This document shows positions 2 through 9,010 of a DNA stretch of 21,706 nucleotides, in pieces. How positions within the stretch are numbered: position 1 is the stretch's first letter; every line of letters starts with the position of its first letter. Both the position numbers and the translations under genes were made by a program. The stretch is from positions 1 to 21,706 of the IMG/VR virus record IMGVR_UViG_3300042327_000381; one strand, written 5' to 3'. The DNA is from a virus. Below the pieces are notes generated by a model that did no database searches, was not told the origin of the DNA, and saw nothing but the letters and a program-made list of their open reading frames with translations.

Positions 2-1408
2 GTTACTGCTCTTGACCAATTTAGCGGAACATTTCTTGCCTCTTTTAATTTAGATACTGGAGTAGTATCAAGTGGAAGCGGAGCGAGTATTCAATCAGTA
101 GGCAATGGTTGGTATCGTTGTGCGATTGCGTTTGATGGTGCAGCAAGTGCTGTTGTTGCTACTTTAGCCCCAAGCCCTTCAAGTGCTTCAGTTAACTATT
201 TAGGCGATGGAACAAGCGGTATATTCGTTTGGGGAGTACAGCTTGAAACTGGCGACATCGCCACCGAGCCAATTTTGACTACTACGGCAGCGGTATCGGT
301 AGGGCCCGTTGCTAACGTACCCCGTTTGGATTATCTCGGCTCAACCTGTGGAAAATTGTTGCTTGAGCCGCAGCGGACTAATTTGATGACGTTCTCGGAG
401 CAAATAGATAATGCGGCTTGGCTTAAAACAAATGCGACCATTAGTGCGAATGCTGCAACCTCGCCAGACGGCTACCAAAATGCTGATAAGTTAATTGATA
501 ACGCAACGCTGGCGGGGCATTTTATACAGCAAACAATTAGCATTACTGGAGTTCATACTTTTAGTGTATTTGCAAAAGCCTCTGAATCTTCAGTAATTAC
601 GTTGCAAATCCAGCAAGTATCGGTTACATCAAACTTTGCTTTAATTTATTACGACCTTATTTCGGGTCAAGTTGAATCGGGGGAATTTAGCACTTCGCTT
701 TCTGCTGGAACAATACAAGAAATGAGCAATGGCTGGTATAGGTGTACAATAACTTATACGCCAATAACTGCGGGAAACCACAACGTAAGGGTTTTCGTTG
801 CCAAAAACATAGGCGGAAACAAAGTTGACTACGCTGGTAATGGAACCGATGGGGTATTTTTATACGGCACCCAACTTGAAGCAGGAGCCTACGCCACCTC
901 GTACATCCCCACACTTGGAGCATCCGCAACACGTGGGGCAGACGCTTGCAGTAAGACGGGGATAAGCTCACTAATTGGGCAGACGGAGGGGACTTTGTTT
1001 GTGGATTTTACAATAAACGCATTAGCCAACTTTGGTACTCCAATAAGTGTAAACGATGGAAGCACTAGTAACTACATTTGGCTTACTATTTTCTCAAACG
1101 GAAATCTTCGTGCTGAACTAAATAATGGAACTGTACAAGCGGCTATTACTTATGGCGGTGCAGTCGTTGGCGGCCGCTACAAAATGGCGTTTGGTTACAA
1201 AACAAACGACTTTGCGCTGTATGTAAATGGCACGCAAGTCGGAACGGACAATAGTGGTACTACTTTTAGCGGTACAACTTTGAGCCGAGTGGATACAGAC
1301 ATCACAAATGCGTCCGTATATTCTACCGCTTCCGAGTCAATAAACCAAGCCCTCCTATTCAAGACCCGCCTAACAAACGCCGAAATGGCTTCGTTGACCA
1401 GCTTGTAA
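2..1408 (+). CDS. Tail fibre / lectin-fold receptor-binding protein, C-terminal part (5' end outside window)
   Basis: The reading frame is open from base 2, so the gene begins upstream of the window; a TTG at 275 is internal. About 468 residues are visible. They hold two related beta-rich modules, each with a conserved NGWYRC segment (near bases 110 and 730) followed by GDGT/GNGT and an aromatic-G-x-QLE-x-G-x-x-AT segment. Only the second copy is complete. The last ~140 residues resemble a concanavalin A/LamG-type domain (FVDFTINA, YKMAFGYK, FALYVNGTQVG). Such modules are common in phage tail fibres and bind surface glycans, so a role in host recognition at the tail tip is inferred. It lies directly upstream of a homing endonuclease gene and the lysis genes, a usual place for a fibre gene. 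The tail-fibre assignment is good; the ligand is unknown. Confidence 0.75.
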   Translation, partial: VTALDQFSGTFLASFNLDTGVVSSGSGASIQSVGNGWYRCAIAFDGAASAVVATLAPSPSSASVNYLGDGTSGIFVWGVQLETGDIATEPILTTTAAVSVGPVANVPRLDYLGSTCGKLLLEPQRTNLMTFSEQIDNAAWLKTNATISANAATSPDGYQNADKLIDNATLAGHFIQQTISITGVHTFSVFAKASESSVITLQIQQVSVTSNFALIYYDLISGQVESGEFSTSLSAGTIQEMSNGWYRCTITYTPITAGNHNVRVFVAKNIGGNKVDYAGNGTDGVFLYGTQLEAGAYATSYIPTLGASATRGADACSKTGISSLIGQTEGTLFVDFTINALANFGTPISVNDGSTSNYIWLTIFSNGNLRAELNNGTVQAAITYGGAVVGGRYKMAFGYKTNDFALYVNGTQVGTDNSGTTFSGTTLSRVDTDITNASVYSTASESINQALLFKTRLTNAEMASLTSL

Positions 1409-2865: not shown

Positions 2866-3285
2866 ATGACAAAGAACTTCACCCTCAAGGAACTGTGCGT
2901 CACCAAAACGGGGATACACAACGAACCGAATGCCGAGCAGAAGGAAGCGTTGCGTTTACTGGCGGTAAACATTTTGCAACCTGCTCGTGATGCTCTTGGG
3001 CCTATTAAAGTGACGTCTGGGTTCCGCAATGCAAAGGTCAATGCAGCCATCAGCGGCAGCCGTTCCAGCCAGCATATGAAAGGTGAAGCGGCTGACCTGC
3101 AATGCGATGACAACGCTGCTCTGTTCAAGTTCATTAAGACGCTGGAGTTCGACCAATTGATTTGGGAGTTCGGAGATAAGGAGCAGCCCGACTGGGTTCA
3201 CGTTTCTTTCTCCAAGAGAAATCGCAAGGAAGTCCTCCGTGCGAAGCGAGTTGGAGGCCAAACCAAATACACCCCGTTCAAATGA
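2866..3285 (+). CDS. Endolysin, peptidase M15 family (L,D- or D,D-peptidase)
   Basis: This 139-residue protein has the M15A metallopeptidase pattern: SGFR (51-54), S-x-H-x-x-G-x-A-x-D as SQHMKGEAAD (68-77), and W-x-H as WVHVSF (110-115). His70, Asp77 and His112 are the expected zinc ligands. The family cleaves peptide cross-links or stem peptides of peptidoglycan; many phage endolysins belong to it. There is no signal peptide, so export would depend on a holin, and two small membrane proteins are encoded just upstream. A 65-base gap separates it from those genes. A short ATG reading frame at 2851 stops after five codons, so the ATG at 2866 is the start. Its last bases overlap the next gene by 4. 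Confidence 0.9.
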   Translation: MTKNFTLKELCVTKTGIHNEPNAEQKEALRLLAVNILQPARDALGPIKVTSGFRNAKVNAAISGSRSSQHMKGEAADLQCDDNAALFKFIKTLEFDQLIWEFGDKEQPDWVHVSFSKRNRKEVLRAKRVGGQTKYTPFK

Positions 3286-3665
3286 GATGGCTCCTCCTCC
3301 TTTTGCTGGCCTCTTGCTCTGCGGAGTGGCACTTGCAACAGGCAACAAGAAAGGGAGCAAGAGTCACCCAAGAGAAGTGGGACACGGTAATCGTAACCAA
3401 AGAGCGACGCTTGTTTGACACGCTTGTCCTCAAGGACATCGACTCTGTTGTTGTCCAAAAGGACAACGTCCGAGTGAGTTTGATTCGCAAGTTTGACACG
3501 ATCCGAGTGAAAGCGATTTGCCTGCCAGACACAATCCGAGTTACCAAGTGGGTCAAGACCACCATCAAACCGAATGAAAGACCTGTTCGGACTTGGGTAT
3601 TCATTTCGATATGCTGCTTCCTGCTTGCAATGCTATTCGCAATAGAAGGCGCAAGAAGGCGATAG
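3282..3665 (+). CDS. Unimolecular spanin-like lipoprotein with C-terminal membrane anchor
   Basis: This 127-residue protein begins with a lipoprotein signal peptide: positively charged start, seven hydrophobic residues and a lipobox L-A-S-C with the modifiable cysteine at 12. It ends with a membrane helix (about 104-121, TWVFISICCFLLAMLFAI) followed by RRR. A lipoylated N terminus in the outer membrane together with a C-terminal inner-membrane anchor is the defining topology of u-spanins such as phage T1 gp11, which fuse the two membranes in the last step of lysis. The middle carries five D-(T/S)-x-x-V/L strands (34, 46, 54, 72, 83), suggesting a beta-rich periplasmic linker. It directly follows the endolysin gene with an ATGA overlap. 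Function is inferred from topology and position. Confidence 0.75.
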   Translation: MRWLLLLLLASCSAEWHLQQATRKGARVTQEKWDTVIVTKERRLFDTLVLKDIDSVVVQKDNVRVSLIRKFDTIRVKAICLPDTIRVTKWVKTTIKPNERPVRTWVFISICCFLLAMLFAIEGARRR

Positions 3666-4540: not shown

Positions 4541-4569
4541 TTACTTTGCCTCATCATTAAAAACCAATC
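4541..4569 (+). promoter_or_regulatory. Promoter-like box plus AAAACCAATC leader
   Basis: TTACTTTG (4541-4548) followed by CCTCATCA and the leader AAAACCAATC (4560-4569), which ends three bases before ATG 4573. The segment TTACTTTGCCTCATCA is almost the same as the one at 8648-8663. A -33 TTG is not visible; only a T-run lies upstream. If the box is a -7 element, the leader sits within the 5' end of the mRNA. Confidence 0.55.
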
Positions 4570-4986: not shown

Positions 4987-5436
4987 ATGAAGATTGTATC
5001 TATCTCCCCCAACGGAACGTGGAACTCAAACGACGGCAACACGTTCTACAAATTCCAGATTCAGTTCGACAACGGACAAAGCGGAACCCTGTTCTCAAAG
5101 AGCCAAGATGCACCGCATCAAGTAGGCGAGGACATCAACTGCACCATCAACGAACGAGGCACCATCAAGGTCGAGCGTTCTGGTGGTGGTAACTGGAACC
5201 GAGGCGGTGCAGCACCTCGTGCTAACGATGCCGAGCGCACCGCATCTATCGTCCGTCAAGTTGCACTAAAGGCAGCGGTAGAACTGTCAGCAGCTCACGC
5301 AGCAGCAGGCAAGTCAATTCCTACGGATAACATCCTTGATCTCGCAGAGCGGTTCAACGCTTGGCTGGAGAAAAAAGAAGTAAAGCACGAAGCGCATATG
5401 GCTATACGCCAAGCGGTAGAGGAGTCGCCTTTCTGA
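4987..5436 (+). CDS. Single-stranded DNA-binding protein-like (OB fold)
   Basis: This 149-residue protein starts at the ATG just after the AAAACCAATC leader. Residues 1-65 look like a short OB-fold barrel (FYKFQIQFDNGQSGTLF, then INCTINERGTIKVE). A Gly/Asn/Arg linker follows (SGGGNWNRGG), then a helical region (75-140). The tail ends EESPF, an acidic tip closing in Pro-Phe, which is the feature through which bacterial SSBs recruit partner proteins. The protein would coat single-stranded DNA during phage replication. The RusA-like, helicase-like and DnaA-like genes nearby fit this role. The fold is inferred from pattern, not a search, and the helical middle is unusual for a standard SSB. Confidence 0.6.
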   Translation: MKIVSISPNGTWNSNDGNTFYKFQIQFDNGQSGTLFSKSQDAPHQVGEDINCTINERGTIKVERSGGGNWNRGGAAPRANDAERTASIVRQVALKAAVELSAAHAAAGKSIPTDNILDLAERFNAWLEKKEVKHEAHMAIRQAVEESPF

Positions 5437-5445
5437 TTGGTTTTG
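5435..5445 (-). repeat. Inverted copy of the leader motif (left arm)
   Basis: GATTGGTTTTG overlaps the SSB-like stop codon. It is the exact reverse complement of CAAAACCAATC at 5589-5599 in front of the helicase-like gene, giving an 11-base inverted repeat about 143 bases apart. The interval holds a G/C-run hairpin and a tRNA-like element. The two arms could pair in RNA and hide the helicase leader. Confidence 0.55.
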
Positions 5446-5455
5446 GTGGTGACTC

Positions 5456-5480
5456 TGGGGGGGTAGTGATGCACCCCCCA
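5456..5480 (+). other. Strong G-run/C-run hairpin
   Basis: A run of seven G (5457-5463) faces a run of six C (5474-5479) across a ~10-base loop, with a flanking T-A pair. It is followed by AACTTGG rather than a T-run, so it is not a standard intrinsic terminator. It ends five bases before the tRNA-like element and may be a processing or stability element for either transcript. Confidence 0.5.
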
Positions 5481-5484
5481 ACTT

Positions 5485-5548
5485 GGTCGGGTGTTGCAGT
5501 ACAACTGTTGCCTCATTTGCAATGCTGGTTCGAGTCCAGCCCCGACCG
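5485..5548 (+). tRNA. Compact tRNA-like cloverleaf (possible degenerate tRNA, anticodon CAU)
   Basis: A perfect 7-base acceptor stem pairs GGTCGGG (5485-5491) with CCCGACC (5541-5547). A perfect T arm is present: GCTGG, loop TTCGAGT, CCAGC (5524-5540). Between them GTTG/CAAC can form a D-like stem with a 5-base loop, and GTTGC/GCAAT (one G-U pair) an anticodon-like stem with loop CTCATTT, reading CAU. G5548 would be the discriminator; CCA is not encoded. The whole is only 63 bases plus discriminator, with no variable loop and no GG in the D loop, so it is shorter than a normal tRNA. An alternative reading is a tRNA damaged by a deletion in the anticodon/variable region (CCTCA-TTTGCAA-TG, anticodon TGC). 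Whether it is charged is unknown. Confidence 0.55.
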
Positions 5549-5571
5549 CAAAAATTCCCGCATCTGGAATT

Positions 5572-5599
5572 TATTTTGTTTATTTGCACAAAACCAATC
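5572..5599 (+). promoter_or_regulatory. Promoter-like box plus AAAACCAATC leader of helicase-like gene
   Basis: TATTTTG (5572-5578) resembles the -7 box seen at 3852 and 4542, and a second similar TATTTG follows at 5581-5586. The leader AAAACCAATC (5590-5599) ends two bases before ATG 5602. This leader decides the start: an open frame runs further upstream, but through the tRNA-like element. Confidence 0.5.
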
Positions 5600-5601
5600 T
5601 T

Positions 5602-6504
5602 ATGCATCCAGACATCCTGTCCATCACGGACACAAGCCCCTTTCTCGAACGGGCGCAAAAAGGTTCTTACTTCGATATGGGGAGAATCGGTAACGAGAAG
5701 ATTGACGAGTTCCTGCGATTTAAGGAGGGGGAGTTCATCGTCTGCACGGGTCACGCCAACGTGGGCAAGACGCACACGATGTTCTATCTGATGCTGATGC
5801 AGTCCATCACCCACGGGAAGAAGTGGCTCTGCTATGCGGCGGAGAACGAGGTTCACTCCATCCAACGAAAGCTGATTGAGTTCCTGCACGCAAAGCCAAT
5901 CAACTTGATTCCAGAGGCGAAGATGCACTCCGACCTGTGCTTCATTGATGAATACTTTAAGTTCATAAACCCGAACAAGATTCTCTCGGCATTCGAGCTG
6001 CTACAAATCTTCAACGAGGTATTGAACGAATGGCAGTACACGGGTGCCTTCATTGACCCGTACAACTCCCTGCGTACCGACCAGAGCGTATTGGGCAAAA
6101 CCTCGATGCACGAGTACCACTATGAGGTAGCAAGTGCCTTTCGGGTGTTCTCACACAAGGAGAAGGTCACCTTGATACTTTCCACCCACCCAGTCACGGA
6201 AGCAATGCGGAAGGTTCACCACGATAAGCACGAGTACGCCCGCCTCCCGATGCCTGTAAACATCGCCGACATTGAACACGGGGGCAAGTGGGGAAACCGC
6301 TCTGACTGTGTAGTCGTAATTCACCGCTATTCGGGCCACCCTACCGACTGGAAGCATACCCACATCCACGTCCGCAAGGTCAAGGAGACGGAGACAGGAG
6401 GACGCATCACCCCTTATGACAACCCGATCGTGCTGACCTCGATGATGGGTAACGTAGGATTTACGATTGACGGACAAAATTTATTGAACTGTGTTGCCGT
6501 TTGA
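5602..6504 (+). CDS. RecA-fold replicative helicase / ATPase (DnaB/RepA-like)
   Basis: With the start at ATG 5602 the protein has 300 residues. A Walker A loop GHANVGKT lies at 50-57, an AENE segment at 80-83 sits where DnaB-like enzymes place the catalytic glutamate, Walker B-like GAFIDPYN at 148-155, STHP at 194-197 as a sensor, and RSDCVVVIHR at 233-242 like the C-terminal core motif of DnaB-type helicases. A K-x-R-like region around 260 (HVRKVKETETG) may supply the finger to the neighbouring subunit. There is no DnaB N-terminal domain or primase domain, so it is a minimal hexameric helicase core or loader. It lies between the SSB-like and DnaA-like genes. A longer start upstream would be translated from the tRNA-like element and is rejected. 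Confidence 0.75.
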   Translation: MHPDILSITDTSPFLERAQKGSYFDMGRIGNEKIDEFLRFKEGEFIVCTGHANVGKTHTMFYLMLMQSITHGKKWLCYAAENEVHSIQRKLIEFLHAKPINLIPEAKMHSDLCFIDEYFKFINPNKILSAFELLQIFNEVLNEWQYTGAFIDPYNSLRTDQSVLGKTSMHEYHYEVASAFRVFSHKEKVTLILSTHPVTEAMRKVHHDKHEYARLPMPVNIADIEHGGKWGNRSDCVVVIHRYSGHPTDWKHTHIHVRKVKETETGGRITPYDNPIVLTSMMGNVGFTIDGQNLLNCVAV

Positions 6505-8009: not shown

Positions 8010-8502
8010 TGCTCGCTGGGCGCAGTCCAGAGAGGTCGGAAAGCAGGGTGAGGAGAGTTTTGTCTTGGCTTGCGAAGCACTTGGGTACCGCTGCCGAAAG
8101 AGCAGCAGGCAAGAAGACATTGAATTGCACATTGACTATTGGGTAACCCGACCGCAAGGGGAGACCTCTGTTGACGTCAAAGGACAGAAGAAGAACGAGG
8201 AGGTCTGGGTTGAGTTAAAGAACGTCAGAGGCCACGCAGGGTGGCTCTACGGCCACGCTGGGTACATTGCCTTTGAGATGGCTTCGCTTGGTGGGTTTGT
8301 TGTGGTGTCAAGGTCGCAGCTGGCAGAGCTGATTGAGATAACAGTTGAGGAAGTGTTCGTCCGCAGGGACGATGCCTACCTCAAATTGTACCAACGAGAT
8401 GACCGCCTTGATGTAATTACACGCATTGAATTAAGTGACCTTGAACTTTTACCAACTTTCAAAATCATAAACTATGCCCATTCCAGTTCCCAAGCCCGCT
8501 GA
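7999..8502 (+). CDS. PD-(D/E)XK nuclease-like protein
   Basis: With ATG 7999 as start (overlapping the previous stop) the protein has 167 residues. It opens with a helix carrying GKQGEESF (14-21), then ED-IELHIDYWV (39-49), SVDVKGQ (57-63) and VWVELKN (69-75). Asp46, Asp59 and Lys61 fit the D-(x)n-D-x-K catalytic core of PD-(D/E)XK nucleases, with Glu18 as a possible helper. Resolvases and restriction-type nucleases share this fold, and the substrate cannot be told from sequence. It sits in the replication region, so processing of phage or host DNA is likely. An upstream in-frame ATG at 7873 would run antiparallel in composition to the gene it overlaps and is rejected. Confidence 0.6.
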   Translation: MVSDARWAQSREVGKQGEESFVLACEALGYRCRKSSRQEDIELHIDYWVTRPQGETSVDVKGQKKNEEVWVELKNVRGHAGWLYGHAGYIAFEMASLGGFVVVSRSQLAELIEITVEEVFVRRDDAYLKLYQRDDRLDVITRIELSDLELLPTFKIINYAHSSSQAR

Positions 8503-8617
8503 AACGCAGGAAAAATTCATCCAAAGATGCGTCTCAAATGACGTAATGAACACGGAGTTTCCCGATGAAAAGCAAAGGATTTCAGTTTGTTACGCCCAAT
8601 GGCGAAAAAAAATGTAA
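8474..8617 (+). CDS. Small phage protein with conserved RC...EFPD...QR..VCY pattern
   Basis: This 47-residue protein runs from ATG 8474 to TAA 8615-8617 and overlaps the nuclease-like gene by 29 bases. Its pattern (MPIPVPKPAETQEKF, IQRCVSND, EFPDEKQRISVCY, QWRK) is one I recognise from many phages, as a small stand-alone protein or at the N terminus of head-protease-related proteins. No biochemical role is known to me. Two cysteines (19 and 39) may pair or bind metal. The good match over the whole length argues that this very short gene is real. Confidence 0.65.
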   Translation: MPIPVPKPAETQEKFIQRCVSNDVMNTEFPDEKQRISVCYAQWRKKM

Positions 8618-8624
8618 ATAATTT

Positions 8625-8680
8625 TTGGTGGTCTGGTTTTTTGTTTGTTACTTCGCTTCATCAAACAAGTAAAACCAATC
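8625..8680 (+). promoter_or_regulatory. Promoter-like element plus AAAACCAATC leader
   Basis: A TTG at 8625-8627 lies 21 bases before TACTTCG (8649-8655), close to the Bacteroidota -33/-7 arrangement. TTACTTCGCTTCATCA (8648-8663) is nearly identical to the element at 4541-4556. The leader AAAACCAATC (8671-8680) ends three bases before ATG 8684 and fixes that start over an in-frame upstream codon. Confidence 0.55.
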
Positions 8681-8683
8681 ACA

Positions 8684-9010
8684 ATGAAAACCCTACAAGA
8701 TTATCTCAACGAAGAAGGCGGAGCGAATTATCTTTTCAACTGCGCTATGTATAATTTATTCTCATCTTATAGCGACCGTGAATATGCTTCTATTTGTGGT
8801 TCGTTCTATGATGGCGTGGTTACTTGGGCAGACCACAACATTGATGACGTGGAGGAGGTTTGTAATACAAAGTATAAGGGCTGGGTTCTTCACCTTTCGG
8901 AAGGTTATGTCGGCAAAGCTTACATCCCTAACTGGGTATTGAACCTTAACGTAAGCAACTATAAGCACGCCAAGTGCTTGTTCAACAAGTACATCAGAAA
9001 GGTTAACTAA
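8684..9010 (+). CDS. Unknown early protein
   Basis: This 108-residue protein starts at the ATG following the leader motif; an alternative codon at 8645 would lie inside the promoter-like element. It begins MKTLQDYLNEEGG and is rich in Tyr, Asn and Cys, with no membrane segment and no motif I recognise. Being a single gene behind its own promoter-like element and leader, it is probably expressed early, perhaps as a host-takeover or defence-counter protein; that is speculation from position. Confidence 0.65.
   Translation: MKTLQDYLNEEGGANYLFNCAMYNLFSSYSDREYASICGSFYDGVVTWADHNIDDVEEVCNTKYKGWVLHLSEGYVGKAYIPNWVLNLNVSNYKHAKCLFNKYIRKVN

Follow-up and report, generated by a model that had tools for sequence, protein, structure and literature searches.

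For RNase P, the stack of acceptor and T arms is the main feature by which a substrate is recognized. Gene 32 of phage T4 encodes a single-stranded-DNA-binding protein (SSB). In mitochondria, tRNAs, including truncated ones, form short cloverleaves that mark the ends of mRNAs in polycistronic transcripts, and these tRNAs truly decode. The SpF41 small RNA of Streptococcus (RF02435) combines a tRNA-like T arm and a closing stem with a hairpin further downstream. Among phage transcripts, RNase P recognizes and cleaves the tRNA-like precursor of the C4 antisense RNA of P1 and P7 and the T4 gene 32 mRNA, as well as other tRNA-like RNAs (PMC11143913). The C4 and gene 32 cases were tested experimentally.

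Here, we analyzed a stretch of viral DNA (the window) of 21,706 bases, positions 1 to 21,706 of IMG/VR virus record IMGVR_UViG_3300042327_000381, whose terminase is closest to those of Flavobacterium phages (~40%). A 63-nt element between two of its genes shares the short cloverleaf of the mitochondrial tRNAs, and the T arm, closing stem and downstream hairpin of SpF41. In contrast to the mitochondrial tRNAs, it has no conserved anticodon. It is likened to C4 and gene 32 as a phage transcript that RNase P may recognize, and to gene 32 also by its link to a possible SSB gene. A tRNA-like RNase P substrate is a known kind of RNA; one that is conserved, has no anticodon and stands in for a terminator would be a new form of it.

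Anatomy of the tRNA-like element

The gap that contains the element and the two genes on either side are laid out as follows.

4987..5436, + strand: upstream gene for a possible single-stranded-DNA-binding protein of 149 aa with the C-terminal residues ESPF
5435..5599: outer inverted repeat read directly, GATTGGTTTTG (5435-5445) / CAAAACCAATC (5589-5599), enclosing the intergenic cassette
5456..5480, + strand: GC-rich hairpin TGGGGGGGT-AGTGATGC-ACCCCCCA, folding at -17.7 kcal/mol
5485..5547, + strand: tRNA-like cloverleaf, 63 nt, kept in five lineages
5485-5491/5541-5547, + strand: acceptor, 7 bp
5493-5505, + strand: D arm, 4-bp stem, 5-nt loop CAGTA
5507-5523, + strand: anticodon-like arm, 5-bp stem, loop at 5512-5518
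5524-5540, + strand: T arm, 5-bp stem, loop TTCGAGT
5548..5550, + strand: G-C-A, a discriminator-like base and then the C74 and A75 positions (GCA or TCA in relatives)
5552..5572, + strand: AT-rich hairpin AAATTCC-CGCATCT-GGAATTT, seen when 5455-5600 is folded to minimum energy
5573..5601, + strand: probable Bacteroidota-like promoter TTTTGTTTATTTGC and leader AAACCAATC of the ATPase gene
5602..6504, + strand: downstream gene, DnaB/primase-helicase-like ATPase with PHROG matches

The element reads GGTCGGG-T-GTTG-CAGTA-CAAC-T-GTTGC-CTCATTT-GCAAT-GCTGG-TTCGAGT-CCAGC-CCCGACC, followed by G. An earlier note made from the sequence alone had described a compact cloverleaf with perfect acceptor and T arms, the T loop TTCGAGT, no variable loop, and a 5-base D loop lacking GG. 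Each of these features is read directly from the sequence, and the cloverleaf, with helices of 7, 4, 5 and 5 bp, is the exact RNA minimum-energy fold (-25.9 kcal/mol, z -2.9). A single base, U8, separates the acceptor from the D stem, and the anticodon stem includes one G-U pair. The note had left the anticodon as CAU or TGC. Only CAU, at 5514-5516, fits the 7-nt loop CTCATTT. Perfect acceptor and T arms of this kind gave no match in 1.07 Mb of first-order Markov-shuffled sequence and, under looser limits, eight matches in about 10 Mb of shuffled sequence. When the 32-nt body of the element was shuffled, two adjacent hairpins of such a kind arose in 0.56% of shuffles. The exact fold and the rarity in shuffled sequence together confirm that the cloverleaf is there.

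As the note had proposed, the element was run through tRNA finding and covariance-model scoring. ARAGORN called no tRNA gene at the element in the window, and the Rfam tRNA model (RF00005), run on 5450-5601 alone, gave 26.2 bits (E 0.0009), below its cut-off of 29 bits. The same element scored 23.8-26.6 bits in relatives. In a whole-window Rfam scan, the top match at the element was tRNA-Sec (RF01852), at 22.5 bits (E 2) against the 47 required, and this identity was rejected, the long variable arm being absent. SpF41 was rejected as well: its model spans the same layout only weakly, at 18.6 bits, far under the cut-off of 52, with several pairs unformed.

With canonical tRNA, the element shares the four-arm cloverleaf, the 7/5 acceptor-T stack, U8 and a TTCRANN-type T loop; the 7-bp acceptor and 5-bp T arm are perfect in all variants, with one G-U in L010. 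It also has C at position 74; reading canonical phage tRNAs in this way gave C there in 344 of 360. It differs in its length of 63 nt, its short D loop without GG, its missing variable loop, its unconserved anticodon loop and its sub-cut-off score. Its 3' end is encoded as GCAA instead of CCA. Canonical tRNA was therefore rejected on the score below 29 bits, the loop that is not fixed at 7 nt, the loss of CAU in L005 and L010, and the missing D-loop GG and variable loop. Judged on anatomy only, the element resembles a tRNA-like RNase P substrate, an acceptor-T stack with a 5' leader to remove.

Conservation among relatives

Relatives were retrieved by the ATPase protein and by the T-arm sequence. 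The element is carried by the window and nine fetched contigs (L002, L003, L005-L010 and L087). Five lineages were aligned (the window, L005, L007, L009 and L010), and the element sits at the same place in all of them. In the ATPase gene, these five diverge at 35-47% of four-fold sites, and the 45 nt of the acceptor, D and T arms show a single change, from G-C to G-U in L010. At the four-fold rate, the chance of 45 unchanged nucleotides is 1e-9 to 1e-13 per pair, although some of this conservation may stem from recombination or another constraint, since the entire gap is conserved: its downstream part is 4% variable, and L009 equals the window throughout. The stems are nearly invariant within the window clade and thus do not prove the structure by covariation there. 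Protein coding was rejected as the source of the conservation: indels of +1 (in L007) and -3 occur, reading frames are not maintained, and stop codons differ between lineages. The earlier note had set a background covariance score, together with no conservation of the acceptor and T stems in relatives, against its reading; that outcome did not occur.

The anticodon arm behaves differently, with 7 of its 19 columns variable compared to 20-22% of columns in the coding flanks. It is paired in every version (GTTGC-CTCATTT-GCAAT, GTTGCC-TCATTT-GGCAAT, GTTGCC-TCATTT-GGTAAT and GTTGC-TTTG-GCAAT), and all four helices are perfect in every variant of the element. The loop is 7, 6 or 4 nt long. CTCAT is retained in the window, L009, L006 and L007, the last two with a 6-nt loop, and L005 and L010 have the 4-nt loop TTTG, with no CAU and no anticodon. 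The variable loop length and the 4-nt form without CAU make a decoding tRNA unlikely. ARAGORN called no tRNA in these phages, at the element or elsewhere. We conclude with high confidence that the element is a conserved, non-decoding tRNA-like RNA. It possibly originated from a tRNA by deletion.

D-arm pattern searches returned the known clade and chance matches only, and a short-body pattern scan of genomes gave no match. Comparison of the element with named phages by blastn gave partial, T-arm-centered matches only, mostly to ordinary tRNAs.

The gene gap and a proposed role of the element

The 149-aa product of the upstream gene has no Pfam match and falls in PHROG 993 (unknown function); its C-terminal tail suggests a possible SSB-like function. 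The downstream ATPase matches PHROG 18375 (DNA primase/helicase, E 1e-31) and PHROG 19 (DnaB-like, E 6e-6). The GC-rich hairpin ends 4 nt ahead of the element (3-4 nt among carriers), with no T-run behind it, and its pairing is maintained as the G/C runs vary (6/6 in L010; 7/7 with one G-U in L005 and L007). A hairpin also lies ahead of 13 of 107 solo canonical tRNAs, which counts against the specificity of the hairpin-element arrangement. The AT-rich hairpin, 4 nt behind the element, is identical in the five aligned lineages; in isolation, it is no more stable than shuffled sequences (z -1.0). TTTTGTTTATTTGC is a probable promoter, judged by its resemblance to those of Bacteroidota; a sigma-70 scan of the region found no promoter, and none for the element itself. 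The leader motif AAACCAATC stands 2-6 nt ahead of ATG in five genes of the window (at 4561, 4972, 5591, 8672 and 9049), and its complement GATTGGTTT, at 5435, shares bases with the stop codon of the SSB-like gene.

All 47 checked relatives without the element have an intrinsic terminator, a hairpin and T-run, in the same gap. Carriers of the element have a hairpin in the gap but no T-run, and none has an intrinsic terminator. The GC-rich hairpin was accordingly rejected as an intrinsic terminator in carriers, the U-run being absent, and terminator prediction on the + strand of the window found none of the hairpin and T-run kind. The swap from terminator to element is one evolutionary event. 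The replacement of the terminator hints that the element helps to end the mRNA of the upstream gene, though it is a single switch.

From the sequence, we see about an even chance that the element lies in the SSB-like gene's 3' untranslated region and acts as a tRNA-mimic punctuation signal that forms the 3' end of the mRNA. Transcripts reading through the gap would fold into the cloverleaf, and host RNase P would cut at G5485, so that the GC-rich hairpin would shield the resulting 3' end of the upstream mRNA. The tRNA 3' pathway would trim the 3' side of the element, and transcription of the ATPase gene would start at a promoter of its own. A tRNA-mimic processing signal would thereby have taken the place of an intrinsic terminator. 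The fixed acceptor-T half and D arm, the retained C74, the free anticodon arm, the hairpin ahead and the occupied terminator site all favor such a signal. Of the three interpretations given in the earlier note, a mimic used for RNA processing is the best supported, from comparative evidence only; the other two, decay by deletion and a minimal tRNA, fared poorly and are taken up below.

An unlikely alternative is a trans-acting role, in which the element would be a small stable RNA that sequesters a tRNA-handling factor as a decoy or mimic. Possible targets are a processing enzyme, the CCA-adding enzyme, EF-Tu, a synthetase and a defense nuclease that attacks tRNA. The conserved acceptor-T half is the part that such factors contact. 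Defense nucleases that cut tRNA tails exist, Cas12a3 among them (PMC12851939), and a pseudo-tRNA of Bacillus cereus is reported to alter phenotype without a role in translation (PMC3399842). However, a role in cis is suggested by the element's fixed place in the gap, behind a hairpin, and by the terminator having been lost there, and no promoter of the element's own was found in the region.

It is improbable that the conserved feature is a DNA-level element, that is, a site for recombination, replication or a homing endonuclease that is palindromic by coincidence. The conservation of the whole gap and of the outer inverted repeat would fit such a site, as would the GIY-YIG-like ORF inserted directly behind the element in L006/L082; yet this ORF occurs in one of ten element contigs, and the near relative L007 lacks it. 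The conserved bases are features of tRNA (the T loop TTCGAGT, U8 and C74), and the changes preserve RNA pairing, G-U included. Complementary arms equivalent to the outer inverted repeat are also present in relatives without the element. The inserted ORF, at 8412-8891 (minus) of L082, encodes 159 aa with a GIY-YIG-like motif seen by eye and has no Pfam or PHROG match. A mobile GIY-YIG cassette carrying the element was considered and dropped, as the ORF is found in one contig only. An attachment site was also considered; no integrase was among the scanned proteins of the window, and the contig may be incomplete. Elsewhere in the window, at 1410-2102, a NUMOD3-containing homing endonuclease separates a tail gene from the gene that follows it.

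Decay by deletion into a functionless remnant, as a present state, is quite improbable. The borderline tRNA score, the appearance of a tRNA minus D-loop GG and variable loop, and the internally deleted tRNA-like sequences in other viral contigs are what a decayed tRNA gene would give. Against this, the acceptor, D and T arms are kept across lineages that diverge at 35-47% of their four-fold sites, which does not support random decay, and the four helices stay perfect in every variant. This reading is largely refuted. Finally, a minimal working tRNA reading AUG is very improbable: CTCAT is kept in four contigs and all stems are present, but the loop shrinks to 6 nt or to a 4-nt form without CAU, position 37 is no purine, the D-loop GG and variable loop are missing, and no other tRNA was found in these phages.

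Acceptor-T structures in other phages

Four cultured Streptomyces camviruses carry comparable structures, for which a limited literature search found no description: Sitrop (MT701598.1, L255), Joe (KX815338.1), phiScoe3 (OQ672747.1) and Verabelle (OQ970439.1). Each genome has 8-10 intergenic acceptor-T-arm minihelices. In Sitrop, an unannotated T arm led to nine elements of 44-45 nt on the early strand (40131-45107, minus strand). Each has an outer stem of 5 bp, a body of 11-12 nt and a T stem of 6 bp with a TTCGAGN loop, followed by A-C-T. All cells of the nine-copy alignment pair, and double changes occur in 6 of 11 pairs. The covariation score is 0.571 compared to 0.110 in shuffles, and 0 of 500 shuffles reached 0.571. 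Eight of the nine begin 6-17 nt past a stop codon and end 30-48 nt ahead of the next gene. One Sitrop copy is annotated as tRNA-Arg, which is a mis-annotation. Joe, phiScoe3 and Verabelle gave eight to ten strong matches each.

Like the window element, the camvirus minihelix combines an acceptor-like stem with a TTCGAGT T arm, here directly behind stop codons. It differs in its size, its 5-bp outer stem, its unpaired body and its 8-10 copies per genome, and the T arm alone aligns. Membership of the window element in this family was rejected, since the minihelix model (R2) matched the T arm alone (14.7 bits, E 0.38). The camvirus minihelices are an analogy only, but they lend credibility to the idea that gaps between phage genes can hold a tRNA-mimic processing signal.

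Further structures of a similar, anticodon-less kind were found in viral contigs with a corrected acceptor search and a broad short-body search, both biased towards the pattern. At least several perfect acceptor-T structures of 41-80 nt that are not called as tRNAs were among the matches listed in viral contigs, and some of these short structures may be deleted tRNAs. One phage (L126) has two cassettes of hairpin, tRNA-like structure and hairpin, at 3220-3270 and 584-661 (minus). They share the same front hairpin, acceptor and rear hairpin, their bodies are 20 and 47 nt, and their T stems differ by three compensated pairs. A covariance model of the window cassette recovered both at E < 1e-6, and a cassette in L113 at 2e-6.

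Tentatively, we propose that several unrelated phage groups might punctuate their transcripts with anticodon-less tRNA mimics, acceptor-T minihelices behind a gene that the host's tRNA-processing enzymes cut. Independent cases would then be the window element, the cassettes of L126 and L113, and the repeated minihelices of camviruses. If this is true, acceptor-T minihelices do the work of a terminator, or that of mitochondrial tRNA punctuation, and phages whose elements are cut by these host enzymes form mRNA ends without terminators. Because tRNA finders discard such sequences, a conserved class of phage RNA may be overlooked or mis-annotated. Cultured Streptomyces phages allow a direct test of the idea.

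Tiny acceptor-T-arm structures of 41-44 nt were also seen at 3572-3612 (minus) of L148, directly behind a perfect 10-bp hairpin, and at 968-1011 of L214. In Vibrio phage KVP40 (L250), an annotated pseudo-tRNA of 116 nt at 313-428 keeps its ends intact around a long central insert.
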